From Paracoccus sp. IB05 (GTDB lineage Bacteria; Pseudomonadota; Alphaproteobacteria; Rhodobacterales; Rhodobacteraceae), in assembly GCF_016405985.1 (NCBI RefSeq), contig NZ_JAEFCF010000040.1, forward strand, positions 1 to 48,381: a stretch of DNA of 48,381 bases, given 5' to 3'. Every line of letters begins with the position of its first letter. Position 1 is the stretch's first letter. Below, piece after piece: positions 3,910 through 22,113 of this stretch. The notes beneath the pieces were generated by a model, which was given only the letters and a program-made list of their open reading frames with translations, was not told where the DNA came from and searched no databases. Both the position numbers and the translations under genes were made by a program.

Positions 3910-4967
3910 CTGATTTCCGGTCTGATAACAGCTGCCCGCCATCGCCGGAGCTGCTCGATGCCCTCGCGCCCGTGCTGCGCCAGGGTCATTCGCCCTATGC
4001 TGCGGATGAGATCACAAAAAGGGTCGAAGGCCGCTTTTGCGAGGTCTTTGACCGCGATCTGCGCTTTTTCCCGTTGTTTTCCGGGACGGCGGCGAATGCG
4101 CTGGCCCTGACACAGCTCGCGCCACGTTTTGCCGAAGTGATCTGCCATCGCGACTCCCATATCAATCTCGACGAATGCGGCGCGGTTGAATTCCAGTCGG
4201 GGGCCCGGCTGCTGCCGATCGGGGCGCGCGACGGCAGGATCTCGCCCGACGATCTGCCACCCCTTCATGACAGCCAGGATCCGCACCGGATGCGACCGGC
4301 TGTGCTCTCGCTCAGCCAGTGCACGGAACTGGGCACCGCCTACCGCGCCGCCGATATCCGGGCGCTGACCGGGCCGGCACGGGCGGCCGGGCTGGGCGTC
4401 CATATGGATGGCACCCGCTTTGCCAATGCGCTGGCGACAACCGGCAGCACACCGGCGGATCTGAGCTGGCGCGCCGGCGTCGATATCCTCTGTCTCGGCG
4501 CGACCAAAAGCGGTGCGCCCGGGGCCGAAGCGGTTCTGATCTTCAACCCCGATCAGGCCGCCGGATTTGACCGGCTGATGAAACGCGCCGGGCATCTGGC
4601 ATCGCGGCTCTGGTTCCTTTCGGCCCAGATCGAAGCCTGGCTGGAAAATGACCTCTGGCTGCGGCTGGCCGCGCATAGCAACGCCATGGCGAGCCAGCTT
4701 GCCGGTCTTATGCGGACCGCAGGTCACAGCCCGCTTTACCCGGTCGAAGCGAATATGCTGTTTTTTGCCGCCAGTGCCGGGCAGAGCGAGGCGCTGAACC
4801 AGGCCGGTTTCGCGCATTATCTCATTGCCCGGTCAGACGGGCAGACCGCGATCCGGCTGGTCACCTCCCATGCCACAACCGGTGCGGATATCGAACGGCT
4901 GGCGGCGGTGCTGCCCGGCATCCTCGGGCAAAGTGACAAGGTCTCACAAACCGCCGCCGCCATCTGA
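3906..4967 (+). CDS. Threonine-aldolase-family PLP enzyme (beta-eliminating lyase superfamily)
   Basis: 353 residues. The fold-type I PLP layout matches low-specificity L-threonine aldolases: FSGTAANALAL near residue 58, Asp168 in HMDGTRFANAL, and the Schiff-base lysine Lys201 in GATKSGA. These enzymes split beta-hydroxy amino acids into glycine and an aldehyde. Translation is coupled to the upstream deacylase (ATGA overlap), suggesting the deacylase releases a beta-hydroxy amino acid that is then cleaved. This pairing is inference. The 3' end overlaps the convergent AraC gene by 24 bases. Confidence 0.88.
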   Translation: MTDFRSDNSCPPSPELLDALAPVLRQGHSPYAADEITKRVEGRFCEVFDRDLRFFPLFSGTAANALALTQLAPRFAEVICHRDSHINLDECGAVEFQSGARLLPIGARDGRISPDDLPPLHDSQDPHRMRPAVLSLSQCTELGTAYRAADIRALTGPARAAGLGVHMDGTRFANALATTGSTPADLSWRAGVDILCLGATKSGAPGAEAVLIFNPDQAAGFDRLMKRAGHLASRLWFLSAQIEAWLENDLWLRLAAHSNAMASQLAGLMRTAGHSPLYPVEANMLFFAASAGQSEALNQAGFAHYLIARSDGQTAIRLVTSHATTGADIERLAAVLPGILGQSDKVSQTAAAI

Positions 4968-5837
4968 CTGACGCCAGGCGGTCGGTGACAGACCGACCAC
5001 CCGGCGAAATTCGCGGCTGAAATGATAGATGTCGCTGAAGCCGCAGGCCTCAGCGACCGCCGAGACCGTAACCCCCTGGCGCAGCAGCAGATCCTGAGCG
5101 CGCTGGATCCGCTGCCGCCTGAGCCAGTCGCGCGGTGTCGTCTGCAGATGCGCGCTGAACAGGCGGCGCAGCTGTGCCGCGCTCATCCGGGCTGTTGAAA
5201 CCATGTCTTCCGCCGTCCAGCGCAGCTCGGGGCGGGCGCCCATCGCGGCGATCAGGCGCATCAGCGCGGGCGGCAGACGGTCGCTTTCAAGTGCCAGTCT
5301 TTCGGCATTCAGCAATGACCAGAGTTCGCCGATCTGCCGGTTGATCAGCAGATCCTGGTTCGTGCCCCGCTCGCGCATCAGATCAAAGAGGCGGGAAAAC
5401 CAGTCGGCGACCGCCGCCCCGCGCGCGATCGGGATCCGCCCCGCGGGGCCGAACAGCAGGCGCATCATCTCTGTCGCCTCGGCCCCGGTGATGCGCAGCC
5501 AGTACAGCACCCAGGGGTCCTGTCGGTCGGCGAAATGGCCATGCGGCTGATCGCCCGCAATCACCGCGCAGGTCGAGGGGCCGATCCGGCGCAGCTCCTC
5601 GCCGATGCGGATCGTCCCCTGCCCTTCCCGGCAATACAGCAGATCGAATCCCGGCGAGGACAGCCGGCTGATCGCATAATCCGGGCCACAGATCACATGG
5701 CCCGCCCGGGCCACACGGGTAACTGCGCCGTCCCAGCGGGGATCGGGCAGCGTATGCAGGTTTTCGACAAAAACCGTTCGTTTTTCGCGGAGCGCAATCA
5801 TGCGCGTTTTGTACAAATAATTGATCTGAGAGTCCAT
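4944..5837 (-). CDS. AraC-family transcriptional regulator
   Basis: 297 residues. The N-terminal half is a cupin-like sensing domain (with GEELRRIGPSTCAVIAGDQPHGHF). The last ~100 residues carry two helix-turn-helix units (MSAAQLRRLFSAHLQTTPRDW and VTVSAVAEACGFSDIYHFSR), the AraC DNA-binding hallmark. It diverges from the dioxygenase and ribose-type transport operon across about 110 bases and most likely activates it in response to the imported compound. A second in-frame ATG at 5801 is possible; the upstream start is used because it keeps a plausible N-terminal arm. Confidence 0.9.
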   Translation of the reverse strand: MDSQINYLYKTRMIALREKRTVFVENLHTLPDPRWDGAVTRVARAGHVICGPDYAISRLSSPGFDLLYCREGQGTIRIGEELRRIGPSTCAVIAGDQPHGHFADRQDPWVLYWLRITGAEATEMMRLLFGPAGRIPIARGAAVADWFSRLFDLMRERGTNQDLLINRQIGELWSLLNAERLALESDRLPPALMRLIAAMGARPELRWTAEDMVSTARMSAAQLRRLFSAHLQTTPRDWLRRQRIQRAQDLLLRQGVTVSAVAEACGFSDIYHFSREFRRVVGLSPTAWRQSDGGGGL

Positions 5838-5947: not shown

Positions 5948-6709
5948 ATGCTCATGCCGACCAGGGACCAGCAGAACCGCTATGCGGAAGATGGCTTCTA
6001 TATCGTCAAAGGGCTGCTTTCAGCCGAAGAAGTCACCAATTTCCGGGACCACGCCCGCAAGCAGCTTGAAGAAGAGGCCCGCGAAGGCAGTGTCATGGCC
6101 AAGGGTGACCGCGATGGCAAAAGCACGCTTCTGAAGATGTGGAACACCGCTGGCGATGACAAATACGGGCTTCTGGCCCGTGACCAGCGCATGGTGTTGC
6201 AGGCCGAAGCGCTGCTGGGTGAAGAGAGCTATCTCTACAGCCACAAAATGACGATGAAACAGCCCCGCGAGGGCGGCGCCTGGGAATGGCACCAGGATTT
6301 CGGCTATTGGTACAACAATGGCTGCCTGCGCCCCGATATGCTGTCGATCTATATCTCGCTCGACAAGGCGACCAAAGAAAACGGCTGCCTCCAGGTGCTG
6401 AGCGGCACCCATAAGCTCGGCCGTCTGGATCACGTCCGCGAAGATGGCCAGACCAATGTGGCGCGCACCCATCTCGAGGCCGCCATCGAGCGCTACGAGC
6501 ATCTCTATGTCGAGATGGAAGCCGGTGACGCGCTGGTATTCCACGGCAATCTGCTGCACCGCTCGGATGCAAACAACAGCGACACCTATCGCTGGGGTTA
6601 CATTTGCTCTTATAACGCCGTCTCGAATGCGCCCTTCGCCCGTCTGCGCGAATATGGCAATTACGAAGAGATGAAGCCGGTTCCTGCCGGCAGCTTCATG
6701 GCTGCCTGA
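5948..6709 (+). CDS. Phytanoyl-CoA dioxygenase (PhyH) family Fe(II)/2-oxoglutarate hydroxylase
   Basis: 253 residues from the ATG that follows GAGGGAGGG. The iron facial triad is visible as His115 and Asp117 (WEWHQDFGYW) and His204 (LLHRSD); Arg215 (TYRWGY) would hold 2-oxoglutarate. The family hydroxylates an unactivated C-H bond in small metabolites, coupled to oxidative decarboxylation of 2-oxoglutarate. The ectoine hydroxylase signature is not present. As the first gene of a ribose-type ABC operon it is likely to modify the imported compound, or to start its breakdown, in the cytoplasm. An upstream in-frame start at 5891 would add 19 Arg/Gly-rich residues and is considered unlikely. Confidence 0.85.
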   Translation: MLMPTRDQQNRYAEDGFYIVKGLLSAEEVTNFRDHARKQLEEEAREGSVMAKGDRDGKSTLLKMWNTAGDDKYGLLARDQRMVLQAEALLGEESYLYSHKMTMKQPREGGAWEWHQDFGYWYNNGCLRPDMLSIYISLDKATKENGCLQVLSGTHKLGRLDHVREDGQTNVARTHLEAAIERYEHLYVEMEAGDALVFHGNLLHRSDANNSDTYRWGYICSYNAVSNAPFARLREYGNYEEMKPVPAGSFMAA

Positions 6710-6801: not shown

Positions 6802-7815
6802 ATGACAGGATCTCTGGCACAGCCTGCCGCAAAAGCGGCAAAAAAGCGGTTCCTGCGGTTCGGCGGGCGCGAAACCGGCGTCGCGCTGGCCCTTTTGGTC
6901 ATGTGTATCGCGCTGACGCTGCTGAATGATCGCTTTCTCACAACCAATAATCTGCTGAATATCGGGCGTCAGGTCTCGCTTCTGGGGATCATGGCGGTCG
7001 GCATGACCTTCGTGCTCGCCTCGGGCGAAGTCGACCTCTCGGTGGGGTCGATTTATGCGTTTTGCGGCCTGGTGACCGGCATGGTGATCGTCGCCGGCTA
7101 CGGGCTTTTCGCGCCCCTGGTGCTGGGCATCCTGGCCGGGATTGTGATCGGCATTATCAACGGGCTTTTGTCGACCTATGGGCGGCTGCCCTCCCTGATC
7201 GCGACGCTTGGCATGTTGTCGATGGTGCGCGGTGCGGCGCTGATCCTGACGGATGGCCGCCCGGTCACCGTCAACGCCAAAAATGGCGCCGCGCCGGATG
7301 TGCTGGCGCAGTTCACCTTCCTTGGTCAGGGCTCGGTTGGCGGCATCCCGATGCAGCTTGTGTTCTTTGCCCTGATCGCGCTGGCGGGCTGGTTCCTGCT
7401 GGCGCGGACCTCGTTCGGCTTTCGCGTGCTGGCGGTGGGCGGATCGACCAAGGCGGCGCGCGTCTCGGGGATCTCGGTCGAGCGCGTGAAGATCGCAGCC
7501 TTCGCGCTGATGGGCGGCCTTGCCGCCTTTGCCGGTATCCTGTCGATCGCCTTCCTGCCCTCGGGCCAGGCAGGGCGCACCGGACTGGGGCTGGAGCTGG
7601 ACGTGATCGCCGCCACCATCGTCGGCGGCACCTCGCTTGCGGGCGGTGAAGGCACCATCATCGGCACCATCCTTGGTGTGCTGATCATCGGCGTGTTGCG
7701 CAACGGGCTGGTGCTGACCGGGGTTTCGCCATTCGCCCAGGAATTCCTGATCGGCCTCGTCATCGTCGTCGCGGTTGCCATCGACAAATGGACCATCCGG
7801 GAACGCCGGATCTGA
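6802..7815 (+). CDS. ABC transporter permease, ribose/xylose type (RbsC-like)
   Basis: 337 residues, mostly hydrophobic with about 8-10 membrane spans. It carries the BPD_transp_2 signature block (LLGIMAVGMTFVLASGEVDL, then SVGSI) and the late AATIVGGTSLAGGEGTI motif. It forms the inner-membrane channel for the adjacent ATPase and binding protein. The cytoplasmic N-terminus is Lys-rich. GGAAG precedes the ATG. It is the second gene of the dioxygenase operon. Confidence 0.93.
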   Translation: MTGSLAQPAAKAAKKRFLRFGGRETGVALALLVMCIALTLLNDRFLTTNNLLNIGRQVSLLGIMAVGMTFVLASGEVDLSVGSIYAFCGLVTGMVIVAGYGLFAPLVLGILAGIVIGIINGLLSTYGRLPSLIATLGMLSMVRGAALILTDGRPVTVNAKNGAAPDVLAQFTFLGQGSVGGIPMQLVFFALIALAGWFLLARTSFGFRVLAVGGSTKAARVSGISVERVKIAAFALMGGLAAFAGILSIAFLPSGQAGRTGLGLELDVIAATIVGGTSLAGGEGTIIGTILGVLIIGVLRNGLVLTGVSPFAQEFLIGLVIVVAVAIDKWTIRERRI

Positions 7816-7881: not shown

Positions 7882-8847
7882 ATGAAAAAACTGCTTGGAA
7901 CCGCGCTGGTCGCGGGGCTTGCCTGGCCGATGCTGGCCGGAGCTGACCCGATCAATGTCAAGGATTTCGCCCTGGCGCCGCGGATCGCCGAAAAGGTGGC
8001 CGCGGGCGAAGAGCTGAACATCTTCGTCTCGTATCACGATGTCTCGAATGAATTCGCGCCGCAGATCCGCGCAGGCGTCGAGCGCGGCGATGCGCTGGAC
8101 AAGGTCAAAGCGAAATTCATCGGCCCGGTTGGCGCCGATGCCGATGGCCAGATCAATGAGATCGAGGCGCTGCTGGACACGATGGACGGGCTGGCGATTT
8201 CCTCGGTCTCGACCGATGCGCTGGCACCGATCATCGACCGCGTGGTCGAGGCGGGCATCCCGGTCATCACCTATAATACCGACAATCCCGACAGCAAACG
8301 CATCGCATTCGCCGGCCAGGATCTGATCCAGTCGGGCCGCGAAGCCGGCAAGCTGATGTGCGAGGTGCATCCCGAGGGCAAGCTGCTGATCCTCACGCTG
8401 GATGCAGCCGCGCAATGGTCGCTCGACCGCGAAAGCGGCGCGCGCGAGGCGATGGCGGCCGGTTGCCCCGCGGCCGAGGTGGTGCAGACCGTCAATACCG
8501 GCACCGATCCGCAGGAAATGTATGCCGCGATTGAAAACGCCATGCTTGGCAACCCGGAAATCTCGGGGCTTCTGAGCCTTGAATGCTGCACCACTCCGGC
8601 AGCCGGTTCCTGGGTGGATCGCAATGGCCGCGCGGGCGAGGTCAAGATCGTCGGTTTTGACCTGCTCGACCAGACGGTTGAGTTCGTCGAGAACGGGGTG
8701 ATCCAGGCGACCATCGACCAGGCTCCGGAAGCCCAGGGCTTTGCCGCCGTTGACCTGCTGGCGAAGTTCCTCAACGGCGAGACCATTGACGATCTCGACA
8801 CCGGCGTCGGCATCTTCACCTCTGCAAATATCGCAGACGTGAACTGA
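7882..8847 (+). CDS. ABC transporter periplasmic sugar-binding protein (RbsB-like)
   Basis: 321 residues. A Sec signal peptide (MKKLLGTALVAG, then LAWPMLAGA) is probably cut after residue 21. The mature protein has the Peripla_BP_4 fold, with the ISSVSTDALAPIIDRVVEAG block and VITYNTDNPDS, typical of ribose/pentose or polyol binders. The start follows a strong GAGGGAGGAA site; upstream in-frame ATGs precede the hairpin and lack a signal peptide. It delivers the ligand to the flanking permease. The pocket cannot be read for the exact sugar; the presence of RbsK and RbsD points to a ribose-like compound. Confidence 0.93.
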   Translation: MKKLLGTALVAGLAWPMLAGADPINVKDFALAPRIAEKVAAGEELNIFVSYHDVSNEFAPQIRAGVERGDALDKVKAKFIGPVGADADGQINEIEALLDTMDGLAISSVSTDALAPIIDRVVEAGIPVITYNTDNPDSKRIAFAGQDLIQSGREAGKLMCEVHPEGKLLILTLDAAAQWSLDRESGAREAMAAGCPAAEVVQTVNTGTDPQEMYAAIENAMLGNPEISGLLSLECCTTPAAGSWVDRNGRAGEVKIVGFDLLDQTVEFVENGVIQATIDQAPEAQGFAAVDLLAKFLNGETIDDLDTGVGIFTSANIADVN

Positions 8848-8915: not shown

Positions 8916-10457
8916 ATGCAGATGGACAGGTCCCCCGTCGTCAGTTTTCAGCGGATCGGCAAATCTTTCCCCGGTGTGCGCGCGCTCTCGAATGTGTCGC
9001 TGTCGCTGAACCCGGGCGAGATTCATGCCGTGATCGGTGAGAATGGCGCGGGAAAATCGACGCTTATGAATATTCTCGCGGGCGTTCTGGCGCCAAGCGA
9101 GGGCACGCTTATGCTGGATGGCCAACCGCTGCGGCTGGCCTCGCCGCTGGACGCGCGGCGGCGCGGGATTGCTGTGGTGTTCCAGGAGCTGTCTTTGTGC
9201 CGCAACCTCTCGGTGGGCGAGAATGTGATGCTGCCGGCGCTGGCAGAGATCCCATCCTGGCAGCTGATCCGCCGTGCCCGCGCGCAAGCGCAGTCGCGTG
9301 AAATCCTCGCCCGGCTCGGCATGGATATCGACCCCGCGACACCTTTGCGCGATCTGTCGGTGGCGCAGATGCAGCTAGTCGAGATCGCCCGCGCGCTGGC
9401 CCGCAAGGTGCGGGTCCTCGTGCTGGACGAGCCGAATTCGGCGCTCTCGCCACATGAATCCGAACACCTGTTCAACATCATGCGCCAGCTGCGCGCGGAG
9501 GGCGTGGCGATTGTCTATATCTCGCATCACCTGAATGAGGTGCTGGCGCTCTCCGACCGGATCAGTGTCATGCGTGATGGCGAACTGGTCGAAAGCATCA
9601 CCGATCTGACCGGCATCGAAGTGCCGCATCTGGTGGCCGCGATGGTCGGGCGCGATCTGGGGGATGCCGCGCCTTACGGAATAACCCATCCGCCGCGCGA
9701 CACGGCGCCCGTTCTGTCCCTGCGCGACTTCCGGGTGCCGGGCGAGATCAACGGCGTCTCGCTTGATCTGCGCCCCGGCGAGATCCTCGGGATCGGCGGC
9801 CTGCCCGGCAGCGGCAAGGATATTCTGGCCGAGGCGATTTTCGGCCTCTGCCCGCGTTCGGGCACCGTGACCATTGCCGGCCAGACACTGCCGGCGCAAA
9901 AGCCGATGGCTGCCATTCGGGCCGGAATCGCACTGATCCCGGCGGATCGCCGCAACGGCGGCGCGCTTTTGTCGATGTCAGTGGCGCAGAATGTGGTGTC
10001 CTCGACGCTCGACCGCCACTCGAAGATCGGCGTTTTGCGGAATGACCTGATCGGGGAAACCGCCAGCCAGCAGATCCGCGCCTTTGACGCCCGCGTATCC
10101 GGGCCGGGCCAGGTGATGAGCACGCTGTCGGGCGGCAATCAACAGAAGATCATCCTGTCGCGCGGCATCGTGTCAGAGCCGAAGGTTCTGATCCTGCATG
10201 AACCAACCCGGGGCATCGATGTCGGCGCGAAAGCCGAGATCTACGCGATCCTGAAACGCCTGGCGGGAGAAGGACTGGCGGTGCTGATGATCTCGTCCGA
10301 ACTGCCCGAACTCGTCCTGCACGCAAACCGCGTGGTGATGATGGCGCATGGCATGGTCTCGCGCGATTTCACCGGAGCGGAGATTTCCGAGCAAAATCTG
10401 ATGATGGCGGCGAGTGTGCAGCCCGCACATCTGTCCGAAGTGGAGGGGGCAGCATGA
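8916..10457 (+). CDS. Sugar ABC transporter ATP-binding protein, two-domain (RbsA-like)
   Basis: 513 residues with two nucleotide-binding domains. Domain 1 has Walker A GENGAGKSTL, signature LSVAQMQLVEIARAL and Walker B VLVLDEPNSAL. Domain 2 has the usual degenerate P-loop (GGLPGSGKD) and an LSGGNQQK signature, but its Walker B reads LILHEPTRGID, with His in place of the Asp that helps bind magnesium. That suggests domain 2 is regulatory or weakly active. It energises the permease of the same operon. The stop overlaps the ribokinase start (ATGA). The ATG at 8916 has only a weak GGAA upstream; a second Met two codons later is possible. Confidence 0.92.
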   Translation: MQMDRSPVVSFQRIGKSFPGVRALSNVSLSLNPGEIHAVIGENGAGKSTLMNILAGVLAPSEGTLMLDGQPLRLASPLDARRRGIAVVFQELSLCRNLSVGENVMLPALAEIPSWQLIRRARAQAQSREILARLGMDIDPATPLRDLSVAQMQLVEIARALARKVRVLVLDEPNSALSPHESEHLFNIMRQLRAEGVAIVYISHHLNEVLALSDRISVMRDGELVESITDLTGIEVPHLVAAMVGRDLGDAAPYGITHPPRDTAPVLSLRDFRVPGEINGVSLDLRPGEILGIGGLPGSGKDILAEAIFGLCPRSGTVTIAGQTLPAQKPMAAIRAGIALIPADRRNGGALLSMSVAQNVVSSTLDRHSKIGVLRNDLIGETASQQIRAFDARVSGPGQVMSTLSGGNQQKIILSRGIVSEPKVLILHEPTRGIDVGAKAEIYAILKRLAGEGLAVLMISSELPELVLHANRVVMMAHGMVSRDFTGAEISEQNLMMAASVQPAHLSEVEGAA

Positions 10458-11380
10458 AGAAACCGGTTATTACCGTTGTCGGCAGTTTTGCGGTTGGGAT
10501 GACGATCAGAACCCCCACCCTGCCGATTTTTGGCCAGACAATTCTGGGCTCCGATTTCGATATGGGGCCTGGGGGCAAAGGGTCGAACCAGGCGGTCGCC
10601 ACGGCGCGGCTTGGCGCGGATTCGGCGCTGGTCGCCTGTGTGGGGAATGACGCGCTGGCAAAGATCGCCACCGATATGTACCGCGCCGAAGGGGTGAACG
10701 CCCGCCATGTGACCGAGTTGCCGGACCGCGCGACCGGGGTGGGGTTCATCATTCTTAACACCGAGGGCAACAACTTTATCATCCTCGATATGGGCGCGAA
10801 TAACGCGATGGATGCGGCCGAGGTTGACAAATCCGCCGACCGGCTGGCCATGTCGGATGTGGTGATGACGGTGCTGGAAATCCCCGATGCCGCCGCCTCG
10901 CGCGCGATGGAACTGGGCAAGGCCTCGGGGGCGAGAACAGTCCTGAACCCGGCACCGGCCCGTGCGCTGCATCCCTCGATTTTCAAACATGTCGATGTGC
11001 TGATCCCGAATGAAAGCGAACTGCGGATCCTTTTGGGCCTGAAGCCTGACGACCCGACCCCGTCCCGCGATCTGGCGATCCGGCTCAGGCGGCTTGGGGT
11101 TGGCACGGTGGTGGTGACGCTTGGACGTGAAGGTGTGCTGATCCTCTCGGACGAGCATGACCTGCATATTCGCGCCCCCGAGGTCGCGGTGGTCGATACC
11201 ACCGGCGCGGGCGACGCCTTCTGTTCGGGCTTTGCCGTGGCGCTGGCCGAGGGGAAATCCATCCCCGAGGCCGCGCGCTATGGCACGCTTTGCGGCTCCT
11301 GGGCCTGCACGAAACTCGGCGTGGTGCCGTCGCTGGGGCGGCGCCATGAAATCGAAGCCTTTGCGAAGGAAATCCAATGA
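10454..11380 (+). CDS. rbsK: Ribokinase (PfkB family)
   Basis: 308 residues. The PfkB fold is shown by the N-terminal GPGGKGSNQAVATARLGAD block and the C-terminal DTTGAGDAF motif, whose last Asp (about residue 253) is the catalytic base. The family phosphorylates D-ribose or a related pentose at C5 with ATP. The gene overlaps the ATPase gene before it and the ribose pyranase gene after it, so import, ring opening and phosphorylation are co-expressed. The neighbourhood is odd for plain ribose, so related pentoses or modified ribosides remain possible. Confidence 0.9.
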   Translation: MKKPVITVVGSFAVGMTIRTPTLPIFGQTILGSDFDMGPGGKGSNQAVATARLGADSALVACVGNDALAKIATDMYRAEGVNARHVTELPDRATGVGFIILNTEGNNFIILDMGANNAMDAAEVDKSADRLAMSDVVMTVLEIPDAAASRAMELGKASGARTVLNPAPARALHPSIFKHVDVLIPNESELRILLGLKPDDPTPSRDLAIRLRRLGVGTVVVTLGREGVLILSDEHDLHIRAPEVAVVDTTGAGDAFCSGFAVALAEGKSIPEAARYGTLCGSWACTKLGVVPSLGRRHEIEAFAKEIQ

Positions 11381-11838
11381 AACGCGGTCGCATTCTGAAC
11401 GCTGAACTGAACCATGCCATTGCCTCGATGGGGCATGGCGATCTGATGATCGTCTGTGATGCAGGCTTCCCGATCCCCGACACGGCCTGGCGCGTCGATC
11501 TCGCGATCGAGAAAGACCTGCCGGATCTGGGCCAGGTGCTGTCGCTGATCGCTTCGGATTTCGTGGCTGAGAAAGTCAGCTATGCTGACAACCTGCCAAC
11601 GAACAACCCGGTCTTGCTGGATAAAGTGAAGACGCTCTTCCCCGATGCCGATCACGAGATGACCACGCATGCCAATATCCTGGGTGCGATGGCGGCACAG
11701 GCCAAGGTGATTGTGCGCACCGGCGCTTTTGACCCCTGGGGCAATATCCTGCTGTGGTCGGGCGTCGATGTGCCGAAATGGTTCGACAAGCCGGGCGTCA
11801 TCGCGCCGCCGGAATATGCGCGGAAGCTGAAAGCCTGA
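11377..11838 (+). CDS. rbsD: D-ribose pyranase (RbsD/FucU family)
   Basis: 153 residues, with slightly longer loops than E. coli RbsD (139). Family blocks are present: early GHGDLMIVCDAGFP and late RTGAFDPWGNILL. RbsD converts the pyranose to the furanose form of ribose so that ribokinase can use it. It overlaps both neighbours by four or fewer bases. Its presence with a ribokinase strongly suggests that a free aldopentose is an intermediate of the pathway encoded here. Confidence 0.9.
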   Translation: MKRGRILNAELNHAIASMGHGDLMIVCDAGFPIPDTAWRVDLAIEKDLPDLGQVLSLIASDFVAEKVSYADNLPTNNPVLLDKVKTLFPDADHEMTTHANILGAMAAQAKVIVRTGAFDPWGNILLWSGVDVPKWFDKPGVIAPPEYARKLKA

Positions 11839-12668
11839 TGCCGAAGATCTTTGACTGGGCCGCGCAACCGGCCGAGCGCATGGTGACGGTCGGCTCGCTC
11901 CGGGCGGGGAAAGGTACCCCCGCCCGCCACGCCCAGGTCACCGCCGATACCGCAGAAGAGGCCGAAGCCGCCGAAGCCGCCGGGATTGAGATGGTGGTCT
12001 GCCGTGCTGCCAATGTGACAACCGTCCGACGCGGATCGAAACGGGTCTTTGTGACGGCGGCGCTTGGTTTCGCTGAAGCCATCACCGAAGACGAGATCCT
12101 GCGCACCGCCTTTCGCGCCCTGACCGATGGCGCCGATGCGGTGATCACCGCGCGCCGCCTTTCGGTCGTCAGCCTGCTGGCGGCGGAAGATATCCCCGTC
12201 ATGGGCCATCTGGGCTTCGTGCCGCGCAAAAGCACCTGGACCGGCCGCACCCGCGGCGTCGGGCGCGAGCCGTCCGAGGCCGAAGAGCTCTGGCATCGCT
12301 TCCGCCGCCTCGAAGAGGCCGGTGCCTTCGCGGTCGAGGCCGAGCTGGTCGCAGCGCCTTTGCTTTCGGCCATCACCCGCAAATCGGGGCTGGTCACCGT
12401 CTCGCTCGGCTCAGGCCCGGGCGGTGATGTGGCGTTCCTGTTCACCTCGGACATCATCGGCGACAGCCCGCGCCTGCCACGCCATGCCCGCTCCTGGGGG
12501 GATGTGGCCAGCCTGCGCCAGCAGATCGTCATCGAACGGCAAAGGGCGCTTACAGCCTTTCGCAGCGAGGTCGCCGGCGGCAGCTATCCTTCGCCCGGCG
12601 AGTTGATCCACCCAGAGAGCGACCCTGAGCTCGACGCGCTGCTCGAGCGGCTCAGCAGTGCCGGCTGA
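11838..12668 (+). CDS. PanB-like (ketopantoate hydroxymethyltransferase-fold) protein lacking the metal ligands
   Basis: 276 residues. The start overlaps the rbsD stop (TGATG). The pattern follows the PanB TIM barrel: GHLGF at 123-127 (GHLGL in PanB), LEEAGAFAVEAEL at 158-170, with Glu169 aligning to PanB's catalytic Glu181, and an end with SYPSPGE (YPGEE in PanB). The magnesium-binding Asp pair of PanB (in VGDSLG and ADLPF) is replaced here by uncharged or basic residues (CRAANV at 55-60, TAALGF at 73-78), and the VKIEGG block reads VITARR. A true ketopantoate hydroxymethyltransferase is therefore unlikely. It may be a relative (PEP mutase/PanB superfamily) acting on the product of the ribose-type pathway. 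Function unknown. Confidence 0.7.
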   Translation: MPKIFDWAAQPAERMVTVGSLRAGKGTPARHAQVTADTAEEAEAAEAAGIEMVVCRAANVTTVRRGSKRVFVTAALGFAEAITEDEILRTAFRALTDGADAVITARRLSVVSLLAAEDIPVMGHLGFVPRKSTWTGRTRGVGREPSEAEELWHRFRRLEEAGAFAVEAELVAAPLLSAITRKSGLVTVSLGSGPGGDVAFLFTSDIIGDSPRLPRHARSWGDVASLRQQIVIERQRALTAFRSEVAGGSYPSPGELIHPESDPELDALLERLSSAG

Positions 12669-19729: not shown

Positions 19730-21217
19730 ATGACCGACTGGACCAGCCGCGCAACCGCGCTTTACGATGGCGGCTTCCGCCCGATGTTCATCAATGGCCA
19801 ATGGGTCAGCGCCGTCTCGGGCGAGGTGATGGAGGCGCGCAATCCCGCCACCGGCGCCCTGCTCGCAACCGTACCGAAGGGCGGTGCAGCCGATATCGAC
19901 GCTGCCGTCCGGGCCGCGCGGCGTGCCTTTGAAGGGCCCTGGTCGAAATTCACCCCCTTTGAACGTCAGGCGCTGCTGTTGCGCATTGCCGAACGGTTCG
20001 AGGCGGAATGGGAGGATCTGTGCCTTTCCGACACGCTGGATATGGGGATGCCGATTGCCCGCACCCTGGGCAATGCGCGGCGTGTATTGGGGATGCTGCG
20101 CTTTTACGCGGGCCAGGCGGTTGCGATCCATGGCCAGACCATCCCGAATTCCTTCCCGGGCGAGATCCTGTCGCAGACAGTCAGGGAACCGATCGGCGTG
20201 GTCGGCGCGATCATCCCCTGGAACGCGCCGATTGCGGGATCGGTCTGGAAGATCGCCCCGGCGCTGGCGACCGGCTGCACGGTGGTGCTGAAACCGTCCG
20301 AGGAAGCTTCGCTGACGGTGCTGATGATCGCACGGCTGATGGCCGAGGCTGGTCTGCCCGAAGGCGTGCTGAATGTGGTGACAGGCACCGGAGCGGATGC
20401 CGGCGCGGCGCTGGCGGTGCATCCCGATGTCGACAAGATCGTCTTTACCGGATCGACCGCCACCGGTCAGGCCATTGCCCGCGCCGCCACCGGCACGCTG
20501 AAACATGTCTCGCTGGAACTGGGCGGCAAATCACCGGTCATCATCTGCCGCGACGCGGATATCGACAAGGCGGTCCCCGTGGCGGCGATGGCGGTCTTTG
20601 CCAATTCCGGCCAGATCTGCATCGCCGGATCGCGCCTGTTTGTCGCGCGCGAGATCCATGACGATTTCGTCACCCGCGTCGCGGATTATGCCGCGAAACT
20701 GAGGATCGGGGATGGGATCGCCCCGGAAACCGAGATCGGCCCGATCATCTCGGCCCGGCAAAGCCAGCGGATCGAAGGCTTCCTGACCACCGGCCTGCAA
20801 GAGGGCGCAAAGACCTATACCGGCGGCACAAGACTGGATCTGCCCGGGCTTGAGGGCGGCAATTTCATCGCACCGACCGTCTTTGGTGCCGTCACCGATG
20901 AGATGACCATCGCCCGCGAAGAGATCTTTGGCCCGGTGATTTCCGCCATGCCCTTTGACACGCTGGACGAGGTGGTGCAGCGCGCCAATGCCACGCCCTA
21001 TGGCCTCGCAGCGGGGATTTTCACCACGCATCTGGGTACGGCGCATAAACTGTCGCGCCGCATCCGTGCCGGATCAGTCTGGGTGAATATGTATCACGCG
21101 ATCGACCCCGCCGTGCCCTTTGGCGGCATGAAAATGTCGGGCTATGGCCGCGAGGGCGGGCTGGAACATCTGGGTGAATATCTTGAGACCAAGGCGATCT
21201 GGATCAATACCGACTAG
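19730..21217 (+). CDS. Aldehyde dehydrogenase (NAD(P)-dependent)
   Basis: 495 residues, the full length for the family. The catalytic Cys297 (GQICIAGSR), general-base Glu263 (LELGGKSP) and oxyanion Asn in IPWNAPIAG are all present. It oxidises an aldehyde to the acid in the cytoplasm. Its 3' end overlaps the convergent LysR gene by four bases. It is probably the partner of the divergent SDR: SDR makes the aldehyde or ketone, ALDH oxidises it (inference). Substrate range is not visible. Confidence 0.95.
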   Translation: MTDWTSRATALYDGGFRPMFINGQWVSAVSGEVMEARNPATGALLATVPKGGAADIDAAVRAARRAFEGPWSKFTPFERQALLLRIAERFEAEWEDLCLSDTLDMGMPIARTLGNARRVLGMLRFYAGQAVAIHGQTIPNSFPGEILSQTVREPIGVVGAIIPWNAPIAGSVWKIAPALATGCTVVLKPSEEASLTVLMIARLMAEAGLPEGVLNVVTGTGADAGAALAVHPDVDKIVFTGSTATGQAIARAATGTLKHVSLELGGKSPVIICRDADIDKAVPVAAMAVFANSGQICIAGSRLFVAREIHDDFVTRVADYAAKLRIGDGIAPETEIGPIISARQSQRIEGFLTTGLQEGAKTYTGGTRLDLPGLEGGNFIAPTVFGAVTDEMTIAREEIFGPVISAMPFDTLDEVVQRANATPYGLAAGIFTTHLGTAHKLSRRIRAGSVWVNMYHAIDPAVPFGGMKMSGYGREGGLEHLGEYLETKAIWINTD

Positions 21218-22113
21218 GTTCGGCCCAGTTCGGTCCGGATCAGCTCGATCAGCTGTTCAGAATAGCTGTGCTGGACATAGCCCTTCGCGGTCAGGATGCC
21301 CACCGCGCGGGTCGAGCCGGGATCCGAGATCCGCACCACGCGGAATTCGGCCGTCGGCATCATCGGCACCGCAATCTCCGGCACCAGCGCCACGCCAAGC
21401 CCGGCCGAGGCCAGCGCAATCGCGGTATAGGCGTTCTGCACCTCATATTGCAGGTTCAGCGAGATGTCCTGATCTGCCGCCAGCCGGTCGATCTGCGCCC
21501 GGATCGCGGTCTGGCGGTCGAGCAGGATCAGCGGGAAACGCGCCACCTCTGACAGCGTGAAACGCTGCGCGCCTTCGTCGAAATCGGCGGGGATACAGGC
21601 GACGAGATGGTCTTCGAGGATCGGCTCGAACTGGAAATCGCTGAGCCCGGGCACTTCCGGCCCGATATAAAGTTCAACCTCCTGCTCCTGCAAAAGTGCA
21701 AGCGCGGCATTGGGCGGCGTTTCCTTCAGATCCACCAGGCTGCGCGGATAACGCAGCTTGAAGGTCGCAAGGATGCGCCCGAGCCGGGTCGAGGCGAGGG
21801 TGGGCGCACAGGCAATCCGCACATGGCCACGCCGCTGCGCCGCGACCTCGGACAGGCGCGCCAGCCCGGCCTGCACCTCGGCCATCGCATGGCTGACCTG
21901 CTCATAGAGCACCCGCCCTTCCGAGGTCAGATTGGCGCGTTGCGGCGTGCGGATGAAGAGGCTCATCCCCACCTGCGCCTCAAGATCGCGGATCTGCATC
22001 GACACGGCCGAGGGCGAGCGGTTGCTTTCCTCTGCCGCGCGGCGAAAACTGCCATGTTCGGCAGCCAGCAGAAAGGTCTGCAGCAATTTGAGATTGATAT
22101 TGCTTGCAGCCAT
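21214..22113 (-). CDS. LysR-family transcriptional regulator
   Basis: 299 residues. The N-terminal helix-turn-helix (FLLAAEHGSFRRAAEESN, then RSPSAVSMQIRDLEAQVG) and a C-terminal effector domain starting at about residue 90 are typical. It stands between the aldehyde dehydrogenase (convergent) and the second ABC operon (same strand, downstream-facing). It is therefore a candidate regulator of either block. No ligand can be read. Confidence 0.92.
   Translation of the reverse strand: MAASNINLKLLQTFLLAAEHGSFRRAAEESNRSPSAVSMQIRDLEAQVGMSLFIRTPQRANLTSEGRVLYEQVSHAMAEVQAGLARLSEVAAQRRGHVRIACAPTLASTRLGRILATFKLRYPRSLVDLKETPPNAALALLQEQEVELYIGPEVPGLSDFQFEPILEDHLVACIPADFDEGAQRFTLSEVARFPLILLDRQTAIRAQIDRLAADQDISLNLQYEVQNAYTAIALASAGLGVALVPEIAVPMMPTAEFRVVRISDPGSTRAVGILTAKGYVQHSYSEQLIELIRTELGRT

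Follow-up and report, generated by a model that had tools for sequence, protein, structure and literature searches.

A PanB-like protein family that recurs beside oxygenases and may capture one-carbon units from oxidative demethylation

A protein of the PanB family encoded in the window (the whole stretch of 48,381 nucleotides that was analysed) has lost the magnesium site of PanB, and its relatives recur beside oxygenases. We put the chance at slightly better than even (about 0.55) that this protein, PanBL, descends from PanB and works as a one-carbon enzyme for oxidative demethylases, passing their one-carbon unit to tetrahydrofolate (THF). A gene labelled as a vitamin B5 enzyme may then capture a toxic one-carbon fragment from oxygenases that would remove methyl groups from sugars. 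The residue pattern, the separate grouping, the association with oxygenases and the independence from pantothenate synthesis are matters of observation.

The gene and its operon

An earlier note on this DNA had proposed a PanB-fold protein overlapping rbsD, and this is correct: it is a real PanB-family gene, and its reading frame overlaps rbsD by one base (Table 1). The note also tied the protein to its operon and the dioxygenase encoded there, and the gene context supports that link. The PhyH-type protein has a WHQD motif, with a His and an Arg further on, as read from its sequence. The rhizopine binding-protein model NF052284 gave 58 bits in the window, below its cut-off of 420, and neither PurU nor FolD was found beside the operon.

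Table 1. Genes of the operon and its divergent regulator, in positions of the window
Feature	Position	Strand	Remarks
AraC-type regulator, divergent	4944..5837	-	Named by eye; kept in relatives
PhyH-type 2-oxoglutarate/Fe(II) dioxygenase, proposed O-demethylase	5948..6709	+	Start picked by eye
ABC permease	6802..7815	+	Top match is the ribose permease model, below its cut-off
ABC substrate-binding protein, Peripla_BP_4	7882..8847	+	Start picked by eye
ABC transporter ATPase	8916..10457	+	Named by where it lies in the operon, which is conserved in relatives
RbsK-like kinase	10454..11380	+	286.3 bits, just below the cut-off of 299.65 of ribokinase model TIGR02152
RbsD, D-ribose pyranase	11377..11838	+	109.4 bits, above the cut-off of 93 of D-ribose pyranase model NF008761
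PanB-like protein (PanBL) gene, 276 aa	11838..12668	+	PanB Mg site absent; H124, E167, E169, R64 and R215-H216 invariant

Separation from PanB and from pantothenate synthesis

The window protein passed the cut-off of the PanB superfamily model PF02548 and has its fold, and it reached 76.1 bits with the PanB equivalog TIGR00222, below the cut-off of 207.55. In an unrooted maximum likelihood tree of 72 rows, 12 canonical PanBs were split from the other 60 rows with full support, and long branches join at this deep split. Within the family, a sister clade had support of 94/86 and the RbsK-operon clade 100/98; the latter also includes five actinobacterial rows without an adjacent RbsK.

Among 299 genomes sampled across the phylum, 14 carried the family at E 1e-60. 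A match was present in 76 of 295 genomes. In 10 of these the matches were all weak (best E > 1e-50) and might stem from canonical PanB, so that 66/295 is the more cautious figure. An apparent fusion protein of 733 aa (L004/L077) was discarded, as the extra part is almost entirely a run of N. In a member of the same genus (L078, G011:C4) PanBL lies in two frames, with matches at 20432-20581 and 20569-21255, and tandem pairs of PanB-like genes occur in L185 (G085:C5) and G286:C114.

The residue alignment of 104 rows combined 92 family rows (73 from close relatives and 19 from the sister clade) with 12 canonical PanBs. Before residues were counted, 12 of 115 rows were left out (three carried internal stops, of which one was incomplete as well, and nine were partial, duplicate or replaced) and E. 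coli PanB, whose numbering is used for D45, S46, D84, K112, E114, H136 and E181, was added. In PanB, Asp45 and Asp84 are magnesium ligands, Lys112 and Glu114 belong with Asp84 to the magnesium and substrate residues, and we take His136 and the catalytic Glu181 to face the one-carbon unit. D84, K112 and E114 were absent from all of the 92 family rows, among which near-copies are still present. D45 was missing in 87 and present in five, in a loosely aligned column, and S46 was kept in just 5/92. The equivalents of H136 and E181 were found in every family row. The loss of the magnesium Asp residues and the retention of a Glu at the position of Glu181, both read by eye in the earlier note, are thus confirmed by the alignment. 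Several glycines and prolines are common to PanBL and PanB. Invariants new with respect to PanB are E167, R64, F202 and R215-H216 (PRH); E167 lies on the same predicted strand as the catalytic Glu, two residues ahead of it. An alternative metal site may exist in PanBL, for example among H124, E167, E169, D205 and H216.

The genome that holds the window also encodes a full-length PanB (358 bits with PF02548) and a second non-canonical relative (L115), which adjoins MocD- and MocE-like genes. Among 28 family genomes hand-picked from those with a match, 18 encoded PanC together with a PanB above the equivalog cut-off and the remaining 10 encoded neither, so the family proteins do not replace PanB there. 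A panC gene was near none of 60 sampled family loci, versus 17 of 18 canonical panB controls. At L227 (G212:C1:2087672-2088445) a second PanB scores 248 bits, which exceeds the equivalog cut-off, and no panC lies in the stretch examined.

Public records annotate the gene as an ordinary ketopantoate hydroxymethyltransferase, and the Pfam and fold match agree with them. Nevertheless, we rejected this identity and regard it as highly improbable, because the metal site is gone, the score is far under the equivalog cut-off, the same genome also encodes a full-length PanB, 18 of the 28 family genomes have one above the cut-off while the other 10 lack PanC too, and the panC context is absent.

Oxygenases beside the family genes

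The 60 family loci were hand-picked from 121 places, most of them from the head of the list, and at least three (L150, L151, L154) duplicate the records L036, L054 and L013. Oxygenases were detected by tblastn at 1e-5 (1e-4 in part) with few query proteins, so that distant types were missed and some weak matches were counted (e.g., L101 at 32% and the P450 of L199 at 29%). An oxygenase lay within 6.5 kb in 51 of the 60 PanBL and sister loci versus 0 of 18 canonical panB loci (Fisher 2e-11, with loci that are not independent), and within 1.6 kb in 43 of 60 versus 0 of 18. A MocE-type ferredoxin was found in 37/60 family loci and in 0/18 controls. The partner oxygenases belong to several unrelated folds: MocD-type FA_desaturase, FA_hydroxylase (sterol-desaturase-type), PhyH and occasionally P450.

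Nine of the 60 loci had no oxygenase in reach. In four of them (L161, L164, L166, L170) MocE adjoins the PanB-like gene, and their genomes encode a MocD of 67-73% identity elsewhere; that of L170 has another MocD 6.9 kb off, just beyond the stretch searched. L150 had a MocD at 7.3 kb, and L151, L152, L160 and L208 had no oxygenase in the stretch searched. The reverse check gave a mixed picture: a PanB relative was encoded no more than 3 kb away at 20 of 33 places with a MocD of at least 59% identity, at 2/7 with one of 43-54%, and at 3/30 with one of 36% or less.

In the RbsK clade the oxygenase is exchanged. Eight loci (the window, L004, L005, L007, L008, L010, L013, L016) had PhyH only and six (L009, L011, L012, L095, L096, L107) a sterol desaturase with ferredoxin only; none had both, with L006 cut by a contig end. 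This exclusivity was tested statistically on loci that are not independent. L009 keeps the full ABC-RbsK-RbsD-PanBL row, and a desaturase and a Rieske protein (ferredoxin) downstream replace PhyH. The earlier note had asked whether homologues always sit with RbsK/RbsD and PhyH, and as a general rule they do not: this arrangement belongs to one clade only, and the family-wide recurrent partner is an oxygenase of varying type.

Another possible role is a retro-aldol reaction on a branched sugar (e.g., hydroxymethyl ribose) that would yield ribose and a one-carbon unit, in effect PanB in reverse. Such chemistry is near that of PanB, and ribose as the end product would suit RbsD and RbsK. We consider it quite unlikely, as it leaves unexplained both the recurrent oxygenases and the swap of PhyH for another one, and D84, K112 and E114 are missing in 92/92.

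The linkage is not universal. In a pattern-scanned set, 29 of 69 loci had an oxygenase no further than 7 kb away, of which tblastn detected 28 and the other is the P450 of L067; many of those without one were from Actinobacteria or SAR116, and some were on short contigs. Ten neighbours scanned at nine mostly actinobacterial loci comprised the P450 of L067, two GNATs, an acyltransferase, a nucleoside symporter, CofC-like, Fic, DUF3644 and redox proteins, and one without a family. Other neighbours of family genes were TPP-enzyme halves and hydantoinase, FAD oxidase and peptidase genes. In SAR116 (L039, L041, L058, L072) the PanB-like gene is followed by two TPP-enzyme halves, identified by a family scan in L041 and by similarity in the others. 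Twelve SAR11 loci had PhyH or other 2OG oxygenases; at L020, L023, L024, L025 and L050 the surroundings include PhyH and another 2OG oxygenase together with a PanE-like reductase and an aldehyde dehydrogenase, and at L020 an HpcH aldolase too. The link to oxygenases is strong in Rhodobacteraceae and rhizobia and weaker elsewhere. On plasmids, 18 of 19 loci had an oxygenase (L101 weakly); at L109, on a plasmid of S. alkalisoli, a sister-clade gene lies beside an inositol dehydrogenase, with no oxygenase in the stretch examined.

Folate genes were scarce in the 60 sampled loci (PurU within 6 kb in two, FolD in none). Both purU and folD were nearby at four of the 19 plasmid loci (L101, L102, L108, L112) and at L012 of the RbsK clade. 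The earlier note had supposed a pentose- or dioxygenase-derived intermediate. Its tie to the dioxygenase stands; the varying oxygenases and the folate one-carbon genes at five loci point away from a pentose-derived compound and towards a one-carbon demethylation product.

It is also conceivable that PanBL splits the O-CH2OH/N-CH2OH hemiacetal or hemiaminal of the oxygenase product, or shields it, without folate. The rarity of folate genes, the tight MocD/MocE link in the sister clade and the new invariant E167, which adjoins E169, would fit. However, purU and folD at the five loci favour folate and such intermediates collapse unaided, which makes a folate-free role unlikely.

Proposed function and known systems

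While the oxygenase types vary, their partner stays the same, which suggests that it deals with the one-carbon unit whose release they would have in common. PanB carries out hydroxymethyl and folate chemistry; no structure of PanB in complex with folate is known to us. From the PanB ancestry, the kept H136 and E181, the lost ketoacid and magnesium side and purU/folD at five loci, we infer the substrate, the part of formaldehyde and THF, and the catalysis of PanBL: formaldehyde and THF would give 5,10-methylene-THF. The partner oxygenase (PhyH here) would hydroxylate the methyl group; the one-carbon unit, freed as formaldehyde or as its hemiacetal precursor, would be captured by PanBL and joined to THF, and FolD and PurU could oxidise the product to formate. 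PanBL would retain the one-carbon side of PanB (the H136/E181 equivalents), the ketoisovalerate/Mg side being lost. The ABC transporter of the window would import an O-methylated ribose or a methyl riboside, PhyH would free D-ribose from an O-methyl-ribose-like sugar, and RbsD and RbsK would feed ribose to central metabolism; O-methyl-ribose is a guess read off RbsD and RbsK.

A wider proposal, which we make tentatively and at somewhat less than even odds, is that PanB, by losing its metal site, gave rise to a widespread and undescribed enzyme family, that this family transfers the one-carbon units which oxygenases remove from methylated sugars and cyclitols straight to folate, that it has been overlooked as a member of the rhizopine mocDEF clusters, and that the window operon salvages O-methyl-ribose, for example from 2'-O-methylated RNA. 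If true, many genes annotated as a vitamin B5 enzyme are misnamed, and a new cellular handling of formaldehyde from methylated sugars becomes testable. It may matter in SAR11, given the twelve members beside 2OG oxygenases, and the family is a candidate for a missing part of rhizopine catabolism.

MocDEF demethylates rhizopine, removing its O-methyl group. MocR exceeded the rhizopine cut-off (650 bits) in L102 and L112, with 740 and 765 bits, and the gene order in both was MocR, MocD, MocE, mocF-like reductase, PanB-like, PurU. The PanB-like gene therefore sits in rhizopine-type mocDEF clusters at these two loci. The MocE of L106 passed the MocE model. PMC10107442 names the unit mocDEF and shows induction of its promoter; rhizopine catabolism serves engineered plant-microbe signalling there and in PMC6668481, and neither main text contains the words demethyl or formaldehyde.

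Our literature search, conducted without most subscription journals, found no paper about this protein and none that joins PanB with a demethylase, formaldehyde or rhizopine. The nearest enzyme is PanB itself (PF02548, TIGR00222; PDB 1m3u, 1o68, 1oy0), which shares the TIM-barrel fold and the H136 and E181 equivalents. In contrast to it, PanBL lacks D84, K112 and E114, does not conserve D45 and S46, and is not found with panC. The isocitrate lyase/PEP mutase superfamily is a weaker match than PanB, and the PanB-type metal ligands are lost in PanBL. In marine Flavobacteriia, as summarised in PMC10033563, a P450 demethylates 6-O-methyl-D-galactose, so that, as proposed for the window operon, an oxygenase removes a sugar methyl ether and gives formaldehyde; the auxiliary gene, however, encodes an ADH that turned out to have no role in formaldehyde detoxification, and the abstract does not mention a PanB relative. 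The rhizopine mocDEF clusters are alike in that, at the two loci with MocR, a sister-clade gene comes immediately after the mocF-like gene, and in that MocD/MocE adjoin the gene in most sampled sister loci, whereas the window operon has PhyH in place of MocD/E/F and RbsK/RbsD in place of inositol genes.
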